Positions 6,888 through 52,624 of a stretch of 64,000 nt of DNA are shown here, piece after piece (position 1 is the stretch's first letter; each line of letters starts with the position of its first letter). Source of the stretch: Bacteroidota bacterium (GTDB taxonomy: Bacteria; Bacteroidota; Bacteroidia; Bacteroidales; UBA12481); assembly GCA_018669475.1 (NCBI GenBank), contig JABHCC010000119.1:1-64000 (forward strand), given 5' to 3'. The notes under the pieces are model-generated. The model saw only the letters and a program-made list of their open reading frames with translations, was not told the origin of the DNA and did no database searches. The translations under genes were made by a program, and so were the position numbers.

Positions 6888-7637
6888 TCAATTGGCTCTG
6901 ACTGACACGTTATATTTACCAGTAGCCTGTTTGGCTGAAACTTCAATTGTCCAGGTACCATAATTATCATCCGCATCTTCTTTATCCCATTTAAAAACCT
7001 GAGACCATTTCACATCAGCGAGCGGAGATATTTCAAATTCATGAATAGTATCGTCATCTGGATTTATTAAGCGGATTAGTATAGTGCCTTCATTAACGGT
7101 ACCATTGGCGCCAAAGTGAAAATCCTTTGATCCCTCCTGTACCTCATATTTGAATTTAGTATCGAAGGTGAGGTCTTCAATAGCTTTGCTAATATTCAGT
7201 GATGTTGTTTCCTTGCTCCTTGAATACATTCCAAGATACCCTAAATCTGAAATAGCCTCTACTTCAATTGGATTAGATGGCCACTCGCGAAAATGAATTT
7301 GCGGAAGCCTGGGCATCTCTTCATCAGAATGATCCTGCCACCTCTGAATAGCTCGTTGGTATTCTTTAAGGCTACGATCACGTTCTCCTAGCTGATTTTC
7401 AAATAGAGCCTTGAGTTCCTTTTCCTGAAGAATTTTTGATTCCTGCAGAGCTTTCATGTTCTCCTCAATGTTCAGAATCTGATCCTTCTTTATTTCTTCT
7501 TCAAGCTGGCGCAGAACTTCTTGCTTATTCTTCTCTTTTTTTCGCTCAATCTCTTTTTTTGACTGAGCTTGTACACTTAGTCCTGAAATTAGAAGACCGA
7601 GTATAACTAATGATAAGGAATGTTTGATTATTTTCAT
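6888..7637 (-). CDS. Secreted protein with N-terminal coiled coil, unknown function
   Basis: A 249-residue protein with a clear signal peptide (MKIIKHSLSLVILGLLISG, cleavage after VQA). Residues about 22-115 are rich in K, E, Q and R with heptad-like spacing, which suggests a coiled coil. The C-terminal 130 residues look like a beta-rich domain ending KYNVSVRAN. The ATG at 7637 is preferred to an in-frame one at 7661, which would put eight residues before the signal peptide. It is transcribed divergently from the histidine kinase gene, so it may be a target or partner of that system. I do not recognise the family. Confidence 0.75.
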   Translation of the reverse strand: MKIIKHSLSLVILGLLISGLSVQAQSKKEIERKKEKNKQEVLRQLEEEIKKDQILNIEENMKALQESKILQEKELKALFENQLGERDRSLKEYQRAIQRWQDHSDEEMPRLPQIHFREWPSNPIEVEAISDLGYLGMYSRSKETTSLNISKAIEDLTFDTKFKYEVQEGSKDFHFGANGTVNEGTILIRLINPDDDTIHEFEISPLADVKWSQVFKWDKEDADDNYGTWTIEVSAKQATGKYNVSVRAN

Positions 7638-7693
7638 GGCAAACAAGTATTGGTTATCCATTTCAAAAGTATATGAAAAGCTAAAGCATAATT

Positions 7694-7728
7694 GTTAACA
7701 CAGGGTTAATGTCTTGTTAATGTGTTAA
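7694..7728. promoter_or_regulatory. GTTAA direct repeats, likely response-regulator site
   Basis: GTTAA occurs at 7694, 7705, 7716 and 7724, so the first three copies are 11 bases apart. That spacing is the classic phasing of direct half-sites for OmpR/PhoB-type regulators. The cluster lies between the secreted-protein gene and the kinase gene whose partner regulator is OmpR-type. Confidence 0.5.
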
Positions 7729-7761
7729 ACCGAAGGCTTTTGCTTGTATTTTAGCAAAGTA

Positions 7762-9165
7762 ATGAAGAACTCTAAAAAACAAATTGGTTTTACAATCCTG
7801 GCTCTGGTCATTCTGATTCTGATGCAGGCAGTTACAGTGTTGAGAATATATAAATTAGAAACAGACAAGTTCGACACTGAATATAGAGAATTAATAATTA
7901 ATGGTCTTGATCTATTCGAGGAAGCTAAACCTGGCATTGGTTTGGATGTGGCTCATGATAATCTTGATTTACAAACCAAACGATTGTTTGAATATTACAA
8001 ATTCGGAAAAGCAAGTGATACATTAGGTTTTAGAAAGATCACATTAAAACTGATACAGGAAGATTTTGAGAAGAATCAGGAAATGGATGTTCTCATTAAG
8101 AAGATTCTCCAAAACAAGAAGATAAAAACAAAGTTCAAGGTTCATATCTTATTTCATAAAATTGAGTTTGACGGTTATAGCGATACCCTTTCAATTTTCA
8201 ATGAAACAATAGACTCTAATTGGGAGTATGTTGATGATCTGAGAATTCCGGATGGAGCCCTGTCTGTTAAACGAGTGAACCATTGGGGTTCTTATTATAG
8301 CTGCAACTATGAGTTACTCATTGATTTTGCCGAGAAAGAAAAGATGGTATTAGGGCAAATAGCCGGAATGATGGCAATAATGCTTGTGGCACTATTTGTA
8401 ATAGGCTTCATATTTATTACTATTTTAAGAAATATGTTGGAGGAACGAAGGCTTTCATTACTGAAGACAGATTTCATCAATAATATGACCCATGAACTTA
8501 AAACACCTTTGTCAACTATTGCTATAGCGACCAAGTCTCTGAGTAATAGTGATTTTGCCAGTGATTCGGAGAAGGTGATTGGCACAGCTAAAGTGATTGG
8601 CCGTCAAAATAAGCAGTTGTCAAAGCAGATTAATCATCTCCTCGACGTCAGTATGTGGGAAAGACAGCAATTTGACCTGGATAAACGTTGGGTTGTTCTA
8701 GGCGATTTTCTTCATGACCTGGTCGAAGCTTTTAAATGGGAATGTAAAGATTTGGATATGACAATCCTTCAGGATTGTAAAATAGATCCAAAACTTGAGG
8801 TTTTTCTCGATGAAACACAAATTACAACGGCTTTACACAACTTGTTGATCAATGCAGTTAAGTATACTGACAAAAAACCGGAGATTTCTCTTAGCTGCGA
8901 GTATACCGATCAGATAATTCTGATCATAAAGGATAATGGAATTGGAATGTCAAAAGACAATGCCAAACATGTTTTCGAGAAATTCTATAGGGTTCATACC
9001 GGAAATATTCATAAAGTTAAAGGATTAGGTTTAGGACTATTCTATGTCAGGCAGATTATCGAAGCCCACCGTGGAACAATTCAACTAGTCAGCAAACTGA
9101 AGAAGGGAAGTACTTTTACAATTAAAATACCAAGTAATGGCAGATCAAATAATTCTACTGGCTGA
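7762..9165 (+). CDS. Two-component sensor histidine kinase
   Basis: A 467-residue inner-membrane kinase. One membrane segment is at about residues 8-27 and the second at about 200-225, which bracket a periplasmic sensor of about 170 residues. HisKA follows with the phospho-accepting histidine near 244 in NNMTHELKTPL. The ATPase domain shows NAVKYT (N box), DNGIGM and GLGLGLFYV. There is no HAMP domain. The ATG at 7762 is preferred to an in-frame TTG at 7744. The response regulator gene overlaps its 3' end by 29 bases. The arrangement resembles Bacteroides RprX/RprY, but orthology is not shown. Confidence 0.92.
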   Translation: MKNSKKQIGFTILALVILILMQAVTVLRIYKLETDKFDTEYRELIINGLDLFEEAKPGIGLDVAHDNLDLQTKRLFEYYKFGKASDTLGFRKITLKLIQEDFEKNQEMDVLIKKILQNKKIKTKFKVHILFHKIEFDGYSDTLSIFNETIDSNWEYVDDLRIPDGALSVKRVNHWGSYYSCNYELLIDFAEKEKMVLGQIAGMMAIMLVALFVIGFIFITILRNMLEERRLSLLKTDFINNMTHELKTPLSTIAIATKSLSNSDFASDSEKVIGTAKVIGRQNKQLSKQINHLLDVSMWERQQFDLDKRWVVLGDFLHDLVEAFKWECKDLDMTILQDCKIDPKLEVFLDETQITTALHNLLINAVKYTDKKPEISLSCEYTDQIILIIKDNGIGMSKDNAKHVFEKFYRVHTGNIHKVKGLGLGLFYVRQIIEAHRGTIQLVSKLKKGSTFTIKIPSNGRSNNSTG

Positions 9166-9814
9166 GGATGATACAGATTTAGGTAATATTCTTTCTCAAT
9201 ATCTTGAAATGCAGGGCTATAAGGTTTTATTGGCTCGTGATGGTCAAACCGCCTGGGAGATGTTTCAGGATAACGATGTTCAAATTTGCGTTCTGGATGT
9301 GATGATGCCAATGATGGATGGCTATGAAGTAGCTGAAAAAATAAATCGAAAATCACCTGAAACTCCTTTTCTATTCTTAACCGCAAAGAGCTTGAAAGAA
9401 GATCGTATTAAGGGACTGAAATTAGGTGCAGATGATTATATCGCAAAGCCATTTGACGTTGATGAACTTGTTTTGCGAATACAAAATATTCTGCGTCGTA
9501 CAGGTTCTCCTGAGGTTATGTCATTCCAGATTGGCCAATATGATTTCTCTTTTGAAGAATTAGTCCTGAAAGGGCCTGAAGACAGTCATAAACTTACTAT
9601 GAAGGAGGGTATGTTACTTCGATTCTTCCTGCAGCATCAGAATAAACTGGTTAAGCGTGAAGATATTCTGGAAGAATTATGGGGTGAGAATGATTACTTT
9701 CTGGGCAGGTCAATGGATGTATTCGTAAGTAGATTGAGAAAATATCTGAGTAATGAGAAGTCTGTCGCGATTGATACAGTCAGGGGAACCGGATATATTT
9801 TCAGGAGGAAATAA
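9137..9814 (+). CDS. OmpR-family response regulator
   Basis: A 225-residue regulator. The receiver domain (about 1-120) has acidic residues in LLAEDDTD, the phospho-accepting Asp near residue 54 in CVLDVMMP, and the late lysine in YIAKPFD. The C-terminal winged helix (about 130-225) ends RKYLSNEKSVAIDTVRGTGY, typical of OmpR/PhoB DNA binding. It overlaps the kinase gene by 29 bases and is surely its partner. The 11-base-spaced GTTAA repeats upstream of the kinase are the obvious autoregulatory candidate. Confidence 0.95.
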   Translation: MADQIILLAEDDTDLGNILSQYLEMQGYKVLLARDGQTAWEMFQDNDVQICVLDVMMPMMDGYEVAEKINRKSPETPFLFLTAKSLKEDRIKGLKLGADDYIAKPFDVDELVLRIQNILRRTGSPEVMSFQIGQYDFSFEELVLKGPEDSHKLTMKEGMLLRFFLQHQNKLVKREDILEELWGENDYFLGRSMDVFVSRLRKYLSNEKSVAIDTVRGTGYIFRRK

Positions 9815-43020: not shown

Positions 43021-46000
43021 ATGAGAAAAAAGTTACTGGTTTTATTCGTAGCTGTTATAGCTATGGTTGGTAGTGTCTTTGCACAGACACGTACCATAAC
43101 TGGATCGGTTACTTCCGCAGATGATGGAACTACTTTACCTGGCGTAACTGTCATGGTAAAGGAGACTCGTCAGGCATCTATTTGTGATGCTTACGGAAAG
43201 TACCGTATAACTGTTGGCCCTGAAGCAAAAACACTTGTGTTTCGCTTTTTGGGTATGTTGTCCCAGGAGGTTACCATTGGTAACCAAACTACTGTTAATG
43301 CTGCTTTAGAGCCTGACGTAGCCAACATCGAAGAAGTTGTGGTTACTGCTCTGGGTATTAAGCGGCAGGAAAAGGCCCTTGGATATGCCATTTCAAAGGT
43401 AGATTCAAAGGAGATTACTAAAGTGAATTCAACCAACTTTGGTTCTGCACTTTATGGTAAAGCTGCTGGTGTTAGTATCAGAACCGCTCCTGGTGGAGCT
43501 ACATCTGCTGTTGACATCAAGATACGTGGTATGAACTCAATCAATTTCAGTAATACACCACTGATTGTTGTTGATGGTGTTCCTATTCGTAATGGTGATG
43601 CTAATAACTCAGGTTATTGGGGTGATCAAAGAATTCGTGGAAATGGATTAATTGACATTAACCCAGAAGACATTGCAGATCTTTCTATTTTGAAAGGTGC
43701 ATCTGCATCAGCTCTTTATGGATCAGAGGCTGCTAATGGTGTGATTGTTATCACTACTAAGAAAGGTACCACACGCAAAGGTCTTGGAGTAGATGTTAAT
43801 TATTCATATATGACCGAGAATCCTGCTTTTAATCCATCACTGCAGAACAAATACGGACCAGGTTATTTCCAAGCGATTAACATGGGTTCATTTGGATCAG
43901 ACGAAGATGGTTGGTTATCAGCTGATAATCCTACATATTATAATGAGGATAGTGGTCAGTATGAGACCTATAATGGGTCAATCAGGTATCCAATTTATCG
44001 TTCATATGCACAATATGGACCTGCGTTTGATGGAGAGCCTGTAATTGGTTGGGATAATAAAATTCATCCTTACTCTGCTCAACCTGACAACTGGAATAAT
44101 ATTTTCAGAACAGGTACAAGTTCAATGGCTAACGTAGCATTGAATCAGGCAGGTGATTTTGGAAGCTTCCGTTTCTCTTATACCAGATTAGATTATCAAG
44201 GTATTACGAGAGGATCAGATCATGACAAAAATACCTTTAACCTGAATGCTACTTTAAACCTGCATCGTAATTTCAGATTAGATCTGGTAGCGCAGTACAT
44301 TAGTCAAAAGACTGAAAACCGTCCTTATAAAATTAACAGGATAACAAATAATTATGGTGGTTTCCTAAGTCGTTTTGACGATACGCAATGGTATCTTGAC
44401 AATTACCAGACATCATACGGATACAGATTCCGTACTGGTAGTCAGCCGAGTGCTACTCCTGATGAGAACCTGAATTATAATATGCGTGCAACCGCATTGC
44501 TTGATTATTTCTGGAGAACTCTTGCAAATAACCAGATTGAATTGCAGGATCGTTTGATCACCAGTTCAACTGCTACATGGACAATCGCTGAAGGTCTGAC
44601 TTTCCGTGGTAGGATTTCTAGTGATTATACAGGAATCAATGTTGAAAGCAGAAATCCAAATGCTGTTCCACTGAGTATTGGAACAGGTGGTTCATACAGC
44701 ATGTCTCAAAGCAGATGGAGCAGAACTTATGGTGATGCTATTTTGTCATACGACAAGCAAATATCCAACAACTTTGGATTATTAGTAAATGCAGGTTTCA
44801 CAGGTCGTCGTGAAATGTACAAATCAGTTAACGCTGGTACACAAGGTGGTTTAAGTGCAGAAAACTGGTTCCACCAGAATGCATCATCAAATAATGGTAC
44901 AAGGAATGGTAGTTCATCATTTAATGAGTATCTGAAGTATGCTTATTTCGGAACTGCTGCCTTCCGTTTCCGTGACTTTGCTTTTGTTGAATTCACTGGT
45001 CGACAGGAAAGTTCTTCTACTTTACCTCCAGGAAGCAACACATTCTTCTACCCATCAGTTAATGGTAGTTTTATCTTCTCAGAAGCTCTGGGTCTTGAAG
45101 GAGCACTTGATTATGGTAAATTACGTGTAGCTTGGGGTATTGTGGGTAATGCACCACCAATTTATGCTGCTAATAATGCTTATTCACAAGGTGCTGTTAA
45201 CGGAGTTATTTATAACTCAGTATCCTCAAATTATGGAAATGACGGTATTCGTCCAGAGGAAAAGCACGAATTTGAAGTAGGTACTGACCTTAAATTCTTT
45301 GGTAATCGCCTGGGAGTTGAAGCAAACGTATATCATAGTCGTATTATTGACCAGATTCTTTGGTTAGATGTTCCTCCAACAATTGGAGCAGGACGTATGC
45401 TTACCAATATTGGTGAGTTGAAGAATCTTGGTTTTGAAGCTGCATTGTACGGTTCAGTACTTGAAAGCAAGAATATGCGCTGGGATCTGAGAGGTAACTT
45501 CTCAATCAACAGAAATACTGTTGTAAGCCTGATGCCTGGTGTTGATATGTTAACTCACTCCAACATGGATGCAGGAGCTGCATTAATTGTTTCTGTACCT
45601 GGTGGATCTATGGGTGATATTATCACTTACATGCCACGTATAAATGACGCCGGACAATATATTGTTGATCCTGAATCAGGATACCATCAAATCAACTTTG
45701 ATGAATATGATGCCGAAGGAAATCCAGTTGACTATGGTTATGGTGATACCCGCCAGAAGGTTGGTAATGCAATGCCTAAGGTTGTTGGAGGATTCGGAAG
45801 TAATCTTGAAGTCAAAGACTTTTTCATTGATTTTGTAATTGATTATAGTATTGGTGGTGATGTTGTTTCTCTTGCAGGTCAGTATATGAAAGGTGCTGGT
45901 ATGTTTGAAGAAACTCTTGAATATCGTGATGAAGAGAATGGTGGATTAGCCTATTACACTGATGGTGATGGTACTCGTCATTTAGCTGATGGTGCCTCTG

Positions 46001-51145: not shown

Positions 51146-52624
51146 TTAATATCTGCTTTTGCCACTGCTTATATATTGATGCAACAATTTTTGCATTTCT
51201 TTTACAATCTCCGGTTCTTCAAGAAATAGATTGTTACTTTCAGTTATATCTTCAGATACATTATATAGTTGACCTTCAGGTTCTGAATCATTCCCTTTGG
51301 AAGTCCATCCTCCTGAACCTCTTCCATCAATATATTTCCAATCACCTTTTCTCAGACTGAACATTCCCGAAATGGAATGGTGAATAGTACCGGGTCGAAT
51401 AGGGTTTTCAAGTTTCTCACCTAAAATAACAGGAAGCATACTATAACTGTCTTCAGCAGCATTATCGGGGAGAGACTGGCCACTTATTGATGCTACTGTG
51501 GCAAATAAGTCAGTATGAGTTGTGATTTCATTTGTTACCTGGCCTTTTTTTACTTTCTGTGGCCACCGTAGAATATATGGAACATGGTGCCCTCCTTCCC
51601 ATACATCAGATTTCATTCCGCTGAAAGGGGCGTTTGCAAGATGGGGGAAAAGAGACTTATCAGATGGAGTCCAATGAGCACCATTATCACTTGTCACAAT
51701 AATCAAAGTGTTTTTCGCCTGTTTAGTTTGGTCCAAAGCATCGAGAACCAATCCAATACTCTGATCAACCTGATATACAAAATCTCCGTACAAACCTGCT
51801 TCTGATTTCCCTACAGCATCTTCTAATGGAACCCAAGGTGTATGAGGTGCTGAAAGTGGAAAGTATAGAAAGAATGGTTCTACCCGATTATCCATTCGAT
51901 GGATATATCTTACAGCTTCAGCGGTAATTCTTGGTAAGACCCCTTCAATGGTAAAACCTTCCTGCAAATCTCCAGGTCTCCAGAATACTCCCCTTGGATC
52001 ATTCTTACCAGCTGTTGTACTGGTTATTGGAGCAATCAGACGTCTATTACTTATATAACAGTATGGTGTCATGTCAAGAGAAGCCGGAATTATAAAAGAG
52101 AAATCAAAACCATGGTCACTAGGCCCTCCATGTACTAAGTTTTCATAATCTACATTATCTGTGGATGTTGGGGCCCATACACCACCTTCTAGTAATGGTA
52201 GTGAATCATTAATTTTTCCCCAATCCAGACCCAGGTGCCATTTGCCAATACATGCTGTATTGTATCCAGCATTCTTTAGTAAGCCAGCGACTGTCATTCT
52301 ATCTGGCTCGATCAGGCTGGGGGAGTGACCCACGAGAACACCGCTTTTTAACCTGCTTCTGAAACAGTACCTACCTGTTAAAACACCATAGCGTGTGGGA
52401 GTACAGACGGCTGACGGACTGTGTGCATCTGCAAAAATCATTCCTTCATCGGCAATCCTATCCATGTTAGGTGTGGGTACCTTACTTTCCTTATTCAGAC
52501 ATGTAAGATCCCCATAACCCATATCATCAGCCATTATAAATATAATATTGGGTAATTCATTTTTCTGATTGTTACATGCTGCTAATGAAACAAAAATGAT
52601 TAGTGTAATTATGGAGTATTTCAT
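51146..52624 (-). CDS. Sulfatase (family S1), lipoprotein
   Basis: A 492-residue lipoprotein with lipobox LAAC (Cys 17). The alkaline-phosphatase-like sulfatase core opens with NIIFIMADDMGYGDL (metal-binding Asp pair). The formylglycine site is C74-T-P-T-R78, then YGVLTGRY. IGKWHLG and IIVTSDNGAHWTP are further metal/sulfate-binding blocks. It removes sulfate esters from glycans and needs an anaerobic or aerobic formylglycine maturase, not encoded in this window. It lies 42 bases downstream of the other sulfatase gene. Confidence 0.95.
   Translation of the reverse strand: MKYSIITLIIFVSLAACNNQKNELPNIIFIMADDMGYGDLTCLNKESKVPTPNMDRIADEGMIFADAHSPSAVCTPTRYGVLTGRYCFRSRLKSGVLVGHSPSLIEPDRMTVAGLLKNAGYNTACIGKWHLGLDWGKINDSLPLLEGGVWAPTSTDNVDYENLVHGGPSDHGFDFSFIIPASLDMTPYCYISNRRLIAPITSTTAGKNDPRGVFWRPGDLQEGFTIEGVLPRITAEAVRYIHRMDNRVEPFFLYFPLSAPHTPWVPLEDAVGKSEAGLYGDFVYQVDQSIGLVLDALDQTKQAKNTLIIVTSDNGAHWTPSDKSLFPHLANAPFSGMKSDVWEGGHHVPYILRWPQKVKKGQVTNEITTHTDLFATVASISGQSLPDNAAEDSYSMLPVILGEKLENPIRPGTIHHSISGMFSLRKGDWKYIDGRGSGGWTSKGNDSEPEGQLYNVSEDITESNNLFLEEPEIVKEMQKLLHQYISSGKSRY

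Follow-up and report, generated by a model that had tools for sequence, protein, structure and literature searches.

Between a gene for a secreted coiled-coil protein and the divergent genes for a sensor histidine kinase and its response regulator, a Bacteroidota genome carries three evenly spaced copies of GTTAA, and the question raised by this locus is which protein reads them and to what effect. Boxes recognized by PhoB, PhoP and OmpR lie upstream of the core promoter and consist of tandem half-sites spaced by approximately one helical turn, and an initial annotation of this DNA had proposed that the GTTAA repeats are a site of this kind, bound by the regulator encoded downstream and able to control genes on both sides. 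The window (the whole 64-kb stretch of DNA analysed here) is part of a 5.56-Mb genome, G000, assembled in 215 contigs. Its two downstream genes, which overlap by 29 bp, do encode a kinase and an OmpR/PhoB-type regulator (PF00072, 3.3e-30; PF00486, 4.7e-19), and the box does lie between this plus-strand pair and the minus-strand gene of the secreted coiled-coil protein (Table 1).

Table 1. Coordinates of the repeats, promoter elements and flanking genes in the window.
Feature	Position	Strand	Remark
Regulator box, three GTTAA half-sites	7694..7720	+	11-bp period; place read from the sequence
GTTAA copies in phase	7694-7698, 7705-7709, 7716-7720	+	
Fourth GTTAA	7724..7728	+	Off phase, 8 bp after the third; probably incidental
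-7 box TACTTTTG of the secreted-protein promoter	7664..7671	-	22 bp from the box
Candidate -7 box TATTTTAG of the kinase operon	7747..7754	+	One base off TAnnTTTG
Secreted coiled-coil protein gene	6888..7637	-	ATG at 7637; signal peptide by eye
Sensor histidine kinase gene	7762..9165	+	HisKA, HATPase_c
OmpR/PhoB-type response regulator gene	9137..9814	+	Response_reg, Trans_reg_C

All four GTTAA copies originally described are present, with the first three exactly 11 bp apart; read in the direction of the secreted-protein gene the box is TTAAC-N6-TTAAC-N6-TTAAC. GTTAA occurs at a frequency of 0.00123 per base per strand, which predicts 0.00024 exact 11-bp triples for the window and 0.02 for the whole genome, and a test of 25 equal spacings (6-30 bp) across the window returned a single triple, that at 7694-7720, with 0.006 expected. 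The genome-wide scan for GTTAAn6GTTAAn6GTTAA that the initial annotation had suggested finds four exact places in the window's genome and no one-mismatch triples; the reversed control pattern, with up to one mismatch, occurs at seven places, none of them exact. Because the control has one-mismatch places but no exact ones, exact match is the carrier of the signal. The 12 family genomes together have 23 exact triples and six exact copies of the reversed pattern, all six in G011. A chance origin of the triple is thus excluded. A profile was built from 49 kinase-linked sites chosen by the exact 15 core bases, and outside the box core it has information also at positions 6, 7, 11, 17, 18, 22 and 28, with little in the farther flanks. 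The fourth GTTAA, which had been counted with the other three, was dropped as a box element, being present in one of the 49 aligned sites (the window alone); it is the three phased copies that matter. An 8-bp inverted repeat around the box, TTAACACA...TGTGTTAA, was likewise found in the window alone (1/49) and was set aside.

Conservation within the family is complete where the locus can be compared. Close orthologs of the regulator (70-79% identity) are encoded by eight of the other family genomes, and the exact triple is present in nine of nine orthologous divergent regions, at the same place and in the same orientation, with synteny inferred in G003, whose assembly divides the locus between two contigs. 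Neither a regulator ortholog nor an exact triple is found in G001 or G002, both incomplete assemblies (62% and 81% complete), and the secreted-protein search of the family, which recovers two copies in eight genomes and one each in G004 and G008, finds none in these two. Ten stand-alone paralogs of the secreted-protein gene in the family also have the exact triple upstream, such that genes for secreted coiled-coil proteins, nine adjacent to the kinase and ten stand-alone, lie downstream of 19 of the 23 family triples, and in all 19 GTTAA reads on the strand opposite the secreted-protein gene. One of the stand-alone genes, L091, was missed by the secreted-protein search, and its kinship rests on its N-terminus, judged by eye, because the ORF has the coiled-coil part only. 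The other four triples are without an adjacent secreted coiled-coil gene: two are on contig C16 of the window's genome and two form a T-rich pair common to G008 and G009. The C16 copies (43475-43501 and 51389-51415), separated by 7.9 kb, lie in identical 47-bp stretches; one is upstream of a lipoprotein-like gene and has an in-phase TTTG, and the other falls in a gap between convergent genes. In G008 a stand-alone coiled-coil gene has an intact box, and no regulator ortholog was found in this 93%-complete, 960-contig assembly, reflecting either an assembly gap or loss of the gene.

Beyond the family, a regulator search (E ≤ 1e-75) covering 247 genomes from the order recovered four further regulators with 51-58% identity, and at all four loci an exact triple lies between the kinase gene and that of a similarly built secreted protein. 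In a wider scan with one genome per species, the nearest named-record regulators among the matches listed are from Bacteroidota (for example, Bacteroidetes bacterium GWF2_49_14), and 41 of the best 80 loci among those matches have the exact triple upstream of the kinase and on the same strand as the kinase and regulator genes. A tree of 90 regulators, rooted for drawing only, places the triple-bearing rows and the window in one clade with support of 100/95. This clade comprises 52 rows: 42 with the triple (window included), seven with no readable upstream region (the contig is too short or, in L129, no kinase is found), L146, which is cut at a contig end, and two Tenacibaculum loci (L153 and L162) with an 11-bp pair and no triple. 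At the Tenacibaculum loci the box has changed to GTTAA-n2-GTTAA-n6-GTTAA, and the regulator gene is followed by one for a small secreted-looking protein. The 28 other scan loci, outside the clade, have no exact triple, and L197 has one with a single mismatch. At the triple loci, the spacing of GTTAA pairs in front of the kinase is 11 bp in 39 of 40 cases, and hardly any other spacing except 22 bp is seen; in the fortieth, L135, an inserted gene was scored as the kinase, and the triple does precede the true kinase. The divergent ORF is 140-330 aa long at 44 of 49 distinct triple-bearing divergent loci. It is approximately 800 aa in L125 (Flavobacteriaceae), L134 (Flavobacterium frigidimaris DSM 15937) and L175 (Pedobacter polysacchareus ZS13-49), and the two of these that were tested, L134 and L175, encode outer-membrane beta-barrels (PF14905) unrelated to the coiled-coil protein; the ORFs of L163 and L180 are of other kinds, without a Pfam match and secreted-looking by eye. 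Conservation of the repeats upstream of orthologous kinases, on which the initial annotation had staked its reading, is therefore near-complete in the family, in the order-level loci and in the clade of the scan.

The strongest signal, and one absent from the initial annotation, is the phase of the box to the promoter of the secreted protein. The sequence TACTTTTG conforms to the Bacteroidota sigma-A -7 box TAnnTTTG, from which a transcription start near 7659 is predicted. On the secreted-protein side, a distance of exactly 22 bp separates the box from the start of TAnnTTT at 46 of 49 kinase-linked sites and at all ten stand-alone sites, compared with 8.7/49 and 2.1/10 at any position in Markov controls, and the full TAnnTTTG is at +22 in 31 of the 49. 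The three exceptions at +22 are L125, L134 and L175, and because these still have TTTG at +26, TTT is found there in all 59 sites (49 kinase-linked and ten stand-alone). In the accessible part of the F. psychrophilum start-site map, TAnnTTTG lies at -12 to -5 (PMC9723704); the box would thus span approximately -61 to -35, and the repeats would therefore occupy the position of a class-II activator. GTTAA reads away from the secreted-protein gene, an orientation that may or may not suit activation by this regulator.

The kinase side is less regular. Here the candidate -7 box, TATTTTAG, is 26 bp from the repeats and ends 7 bp before the kinase ATG, predicting a leader of approximately 3 nt. TAnnTTT is found at +26 in 16 of the 49 sites, at +27 in three and at +37 in ten, such that the +26/27 group (19 sites) and the +37 group are one turn apart, and it is present at any position in 36 of 49 compared with 9.5 in the control. 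The -7 boxes on either side, together with reuse of the box before the stand-alone paralogs, support the suggestion of a single site acting in both directions. Since the kinase-side -7 box is less regular, and the window's own is one base off the consensus, autoregulation of the kinase operon is less sure than regulation of the secreted-protein gene.

How large a regulon does the box define? A composite of the box and the -7 element, allowing no mismatches, has 19 matches in the 12 family genomes, and these are exactly the nine kinase-adjacent and ten stand-alone secreted-protein promoters. Relaxed to three mismatches it has 48 matches compared with 29 for the reversed control, distributed as 19, 1, 2 and 26 with zero, one, two and three mismatches respectively; the one-mismatch site precedes the lipoprotein-like gene on G000:C16 (ORF in L003, 1580-2308). 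A regulon larger than the 19 promoters and the lipoprotein site was rejected, as the 28 matches at two or three mismatches compare with 29 control matches at up to three. The idea of a regulon motif thus stands in that the motif recurs at its targets, but the target set is very small. Genomes with any exact triple have one to six, and two of the 12 family genomes have none; eleven genomes reached through the named loci (that of L125 left out) also have one to six each. Some extra triples in these genomes precede other histidine kinases, in F. frigidimaris (L212), Pedobacter (L215) and Prolixibacteraceae (L201), and others precede unrelated genes. At some triples the -7 box is out of phase, at +21 in L204 and with none at +22 in L208, L211, L216 and L218. 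A row of four GTTAA with an 11-bp period is present in Pedobacter polysacchareus (G256:C15:92922-92959; L216/L217), with no kinase-like ORF start recognized among the surrounding ORFs listed. In a sample of the phylum the composite is found in two of 395 genomes, the window's own and G331, where the sequence around the match (L247) is AT-rich and has several copies of GTTAA, and no two of its ORFs make up a kinase-regulator pair. Being found in two of 395 genomes, the system is therefore apparently confined to certain lineages.

The regulator phosphoacceptor, D54, is invariant in the 13 sequences compared, and the helix RSMDVF(I/V)SRLRKYL is near-unchanged in the clade, with exceptions such as L151, L163, L175 and L180. 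The kinase sensor region is modelled with confidence (window 7762-8460; AlphaFold pLDDT 91.7) and sits between two long predicted helices that are probably membrane helices; because comparison of the model with PDB folds gave no match below E 0.03, no ligand is proposed. For the secreted protein, AlphaFold places a helix at residues 3-102 and strands at 145-248 (mean pLDDT 86.9), predicting a long helix followed by a C-terminal beta domain, a beta-sandwich of approximately 100 aa. The window's copy has no Pfam domain, CpxP-type or other; among 51 relatives, GBD_Hemicentin is matched in 17 and P-domain in four (E ≤ 0.01). Foldseek returned a best match at E 8e-6 and, in its 50 top rows, beta-sandwiches of many kinds with TM scores by query length of at most 0.33. 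A profile search of PDB sequences gave 20 matches to E 1, the best of them (E 3.5e-5) to part of a TATA-box-binding protein that aligns to the helical region and was taken as compositional noise. We have rejected any named function for this protein, as the window's copy has no Pfam domain and the fold matches are generic.

Box, period and phase to the -7 box are conserved across the clade, and the module of box and promoter also stands before the stand-alone paralogs. As this arrangement recurs at a fixed promoter distance beside the same genes in related Bacteroidota, the triple is very probably a docking site, and we regard it as likely that the protein it binds is the phosphorylated form of the downstream regulator, activating the secreted protein or proteins and its own operon. 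The kinase would sense an envelope signal and phosphorylate the regulator, molecules of which may bind the 11-bp repeats in a head-to-tail array. Lying at approximately -39 to -35, the proximal repeat would replace the -33 element and present the regulator to sigma or RNA polymerase, giving class II activation of the coiled-coil protein and its paralogs. The kinase-regulator operon would be autoregulated from the same site, using a -7 box whose distance is mostly 4 or 15 bp greater. The secreted protein might act as an effector in the periplasm or at the outer membrane, perhaps also as a feedback partner of the kinase, by analogy with the wiring of CpxP.

Alternatively, the same regulator could act as a repressor from the same box, holding down the levels of the kinase and the secreted protein until its own state switches. 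Polymerase could be obstructed by a box that reaches to -35, and in the accessible part of the report on the related RprY of P. gingivalis that protein is possibly a repressor and binds its own promoter (PMC3646045). However, the box overlaps neither the -7 element nor the predicted start, and it stands upstream of the -7 element at a distance that is invariant, as the TTT at +26 in every one of the 59 sites attests. A repressor site needs no fixed helical phase, whereas a class-II activator does, and we consider repression unlikely. A reading of the repeats as a promoter element or a structural one – a sigma contact, or curved AT-rich DNA – with no dedicated regulator draws on the AT-rich composition of the half-sites and on T-rich triples elsewhere that have no in-phase -7 box (L096, L105). 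It is hard to credit given that spacing and core are conserved while the farther flanks have little information, that the fetched loci with a triple are confined to the clade of this two-component system and to the secreted-protein paralogs, and that the composite is so rare in the phylum sample.

Could the box belong to a different OmpR-type paralog, with the linked regulator a bystander? Cross-binding is possible because related regulators share a similar C-terminal helix and have GTTAA pairs of their own; moreover, G008 has the box with no detected regulator ortholog, and some triples in other genomes precede other kinases. Nevertheless, the distribution of the exact triple among the best loci listed follows the clade of the linked regulator, none of the four exact triples of the window's genome is at another listed OmpR-type regulator, and G001 and G002 (62% and 81% complete) lack ortholog and triple alike. 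An 11-bp pair is found at only one of the 13 other regulator loci of the genome (on C171), a weak count in that only four of the 13 stretches reach the kinase start. Taken together these observations make use of the box by a paralog very improbable, and the preferred reading is that of activation by the linked regulator.

Related regulators nonetheless provide an informative comparison. The closest named model of the window's regulator is RprY (NF051850; 218.8 bits, below the 370-bit cut-off), and RprXY loci were therefore examined across 20 genomes from the window's order, 19 with a regulator above the cut-off together with the RprY-like gene on C27 of the window's genome (355 bits, below it). 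Within a fixed upstream window, these loci have GTTAA pairs spaced by 10 bp in eight of 20, by 19 bp in four and by 11 bp in none. The clade of the window's regulator has 11-bp pairs in 42 of 45 loci and 10-bp pairs in none, and scan loci outside the clade have an 11-bp pair in 13 of 26. Measured from the kinase start, the 10-bp pair is found at nine of the 18 RprXY loci with a kinase found, and an 11-bp pair at 14 of 29 loci without the triple, one of them from Tenacibaculum, compared with 0.03/29 in the Markov control. One RprXY locus (L290, in the set L278-L297) has four GTTAA in a row upstream of rprX. The 10-bp pair upstream of rprX is a candidate RprY box; it was not found in the accessible parts of two RprY papers (PMC3646045, PMC6032018), which have no 'motif' or 'consensus' wording.

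The groups also have in common the core RSMDV...LRK of the C-terminal helix, which we take to be the DNA-reading helix of these regulators. The window's regulator has GRSMDVFVSRLRKYL and RprY mostly ARSMDVYITKLRKHL, with ARSMDVYITKLRK(H/Y/L) in 19 of 20 RprY sequences and R in place of K in one; the scan loci have RS(M/L)DVF(I/V)... with few exceptions, and the C171 paralog has RSMDVYIAKLRSYL. All three geometries are present in the window's genome, the 11-bp triple in the window, the 11-bp pair on C171 and the 10-bp pair on C27, and each stands upstream of a kinase gene of its own. From the arrangement of the repeats the loci would fall into 10-bp pairs (up to four copies) in RprXY, 11-bp pairs in a middle group and, in the window's clade, 11-bp triples with a -7 box at 22 bp, and we tentatively raise the possibility that the RprY and window group shares one GTTAA half-site, with array geometry keeping the regulators apart. 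As a counterpoint, half of the loci outside the clade, and most RprY loci, are without such a pair. If the idea is true, spacing and copy number, more than sequence, insulate paralogous two-component systems within one cell. At six loci (L166, L171, L181, L188, L189 and L190; four of the six from Saprospiraceae) pair-type boxes face divergent secreted-looking ORFs, whose proteins have NPF near the N-terminus.

A literature search on RprY, Cpx, 11-bp repeats, and GTTAA or TTAAC in Bacteroidota found no report of the box in the titles and abstracts listed, a weak negative given its thin coverage of subscription journals, and the box is not mentioned in the accessible parts of PMC3646045, PMC6032018, PMC10951265, PMC10197871, PMC9723704 or PMC3158067. 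With known OmpR/PhoB-family boxes (PhoB, PhoP, OmpR and CpxR) it shares tandem half-sites and a regulator of the same domain make-up; it differs in having GTTAA in three copies at 11 bp and in lying 22 bp from a Bacteroidota -7 box. The CpxR consensus, for comparison, is given as GTAAA(N)4-8GTAAA in the portion of that report available to us (PMC3158067). With RprX/RprY the window has in common a kinase-regulator operon and GTTAA repeats upstream of the kinase gene, and it is set apart by its score (218.8 compared with 370 bits) and by its 11-bp spacing, the 10-bp spacing of RprXY being a feature seen in this analysis rather than a published criterion.

The closest parallel in wiring is CpxRA/CpxP, in which, as at the window's locus, the operon diverges from the gene of a small helical envelope protein with a box in between; the accessible part of a Yersinia study describes a cpxR-cpxP divergent promoter with a footprinted CpxR box between the genes (PMC3158067). 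The window's system has this divergent envelope gene and box, but membership in Cpx was rejected: its regulator scores 127 bits with the CpxR model (cut-off 341) and its kinase 93.9 with that of CpxA (cut-off 486), and in place of a CpxP-type domain its secreted protein, which has no Pfam domain, combines a long helix with a beta-sandwich in its AlphaFold model. The best reading is thus of a narrow, autoregulated envelope circuit that appears to be wired like CpxRA/CpxP without being a member. Envelope-stress sensing is poorly mapped in Bacteroidota compared with Cpx in enterobacteria, and here an operator, a transcription start and a few targets are predicted for an uncharacterized Bacteroidota two-component system, most of the targets being secreted or outer-membrane proteins. 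The comparison with RprXY, in turn, makes it simple to ask what keeps closely related regulators from acting at one another's promoters.
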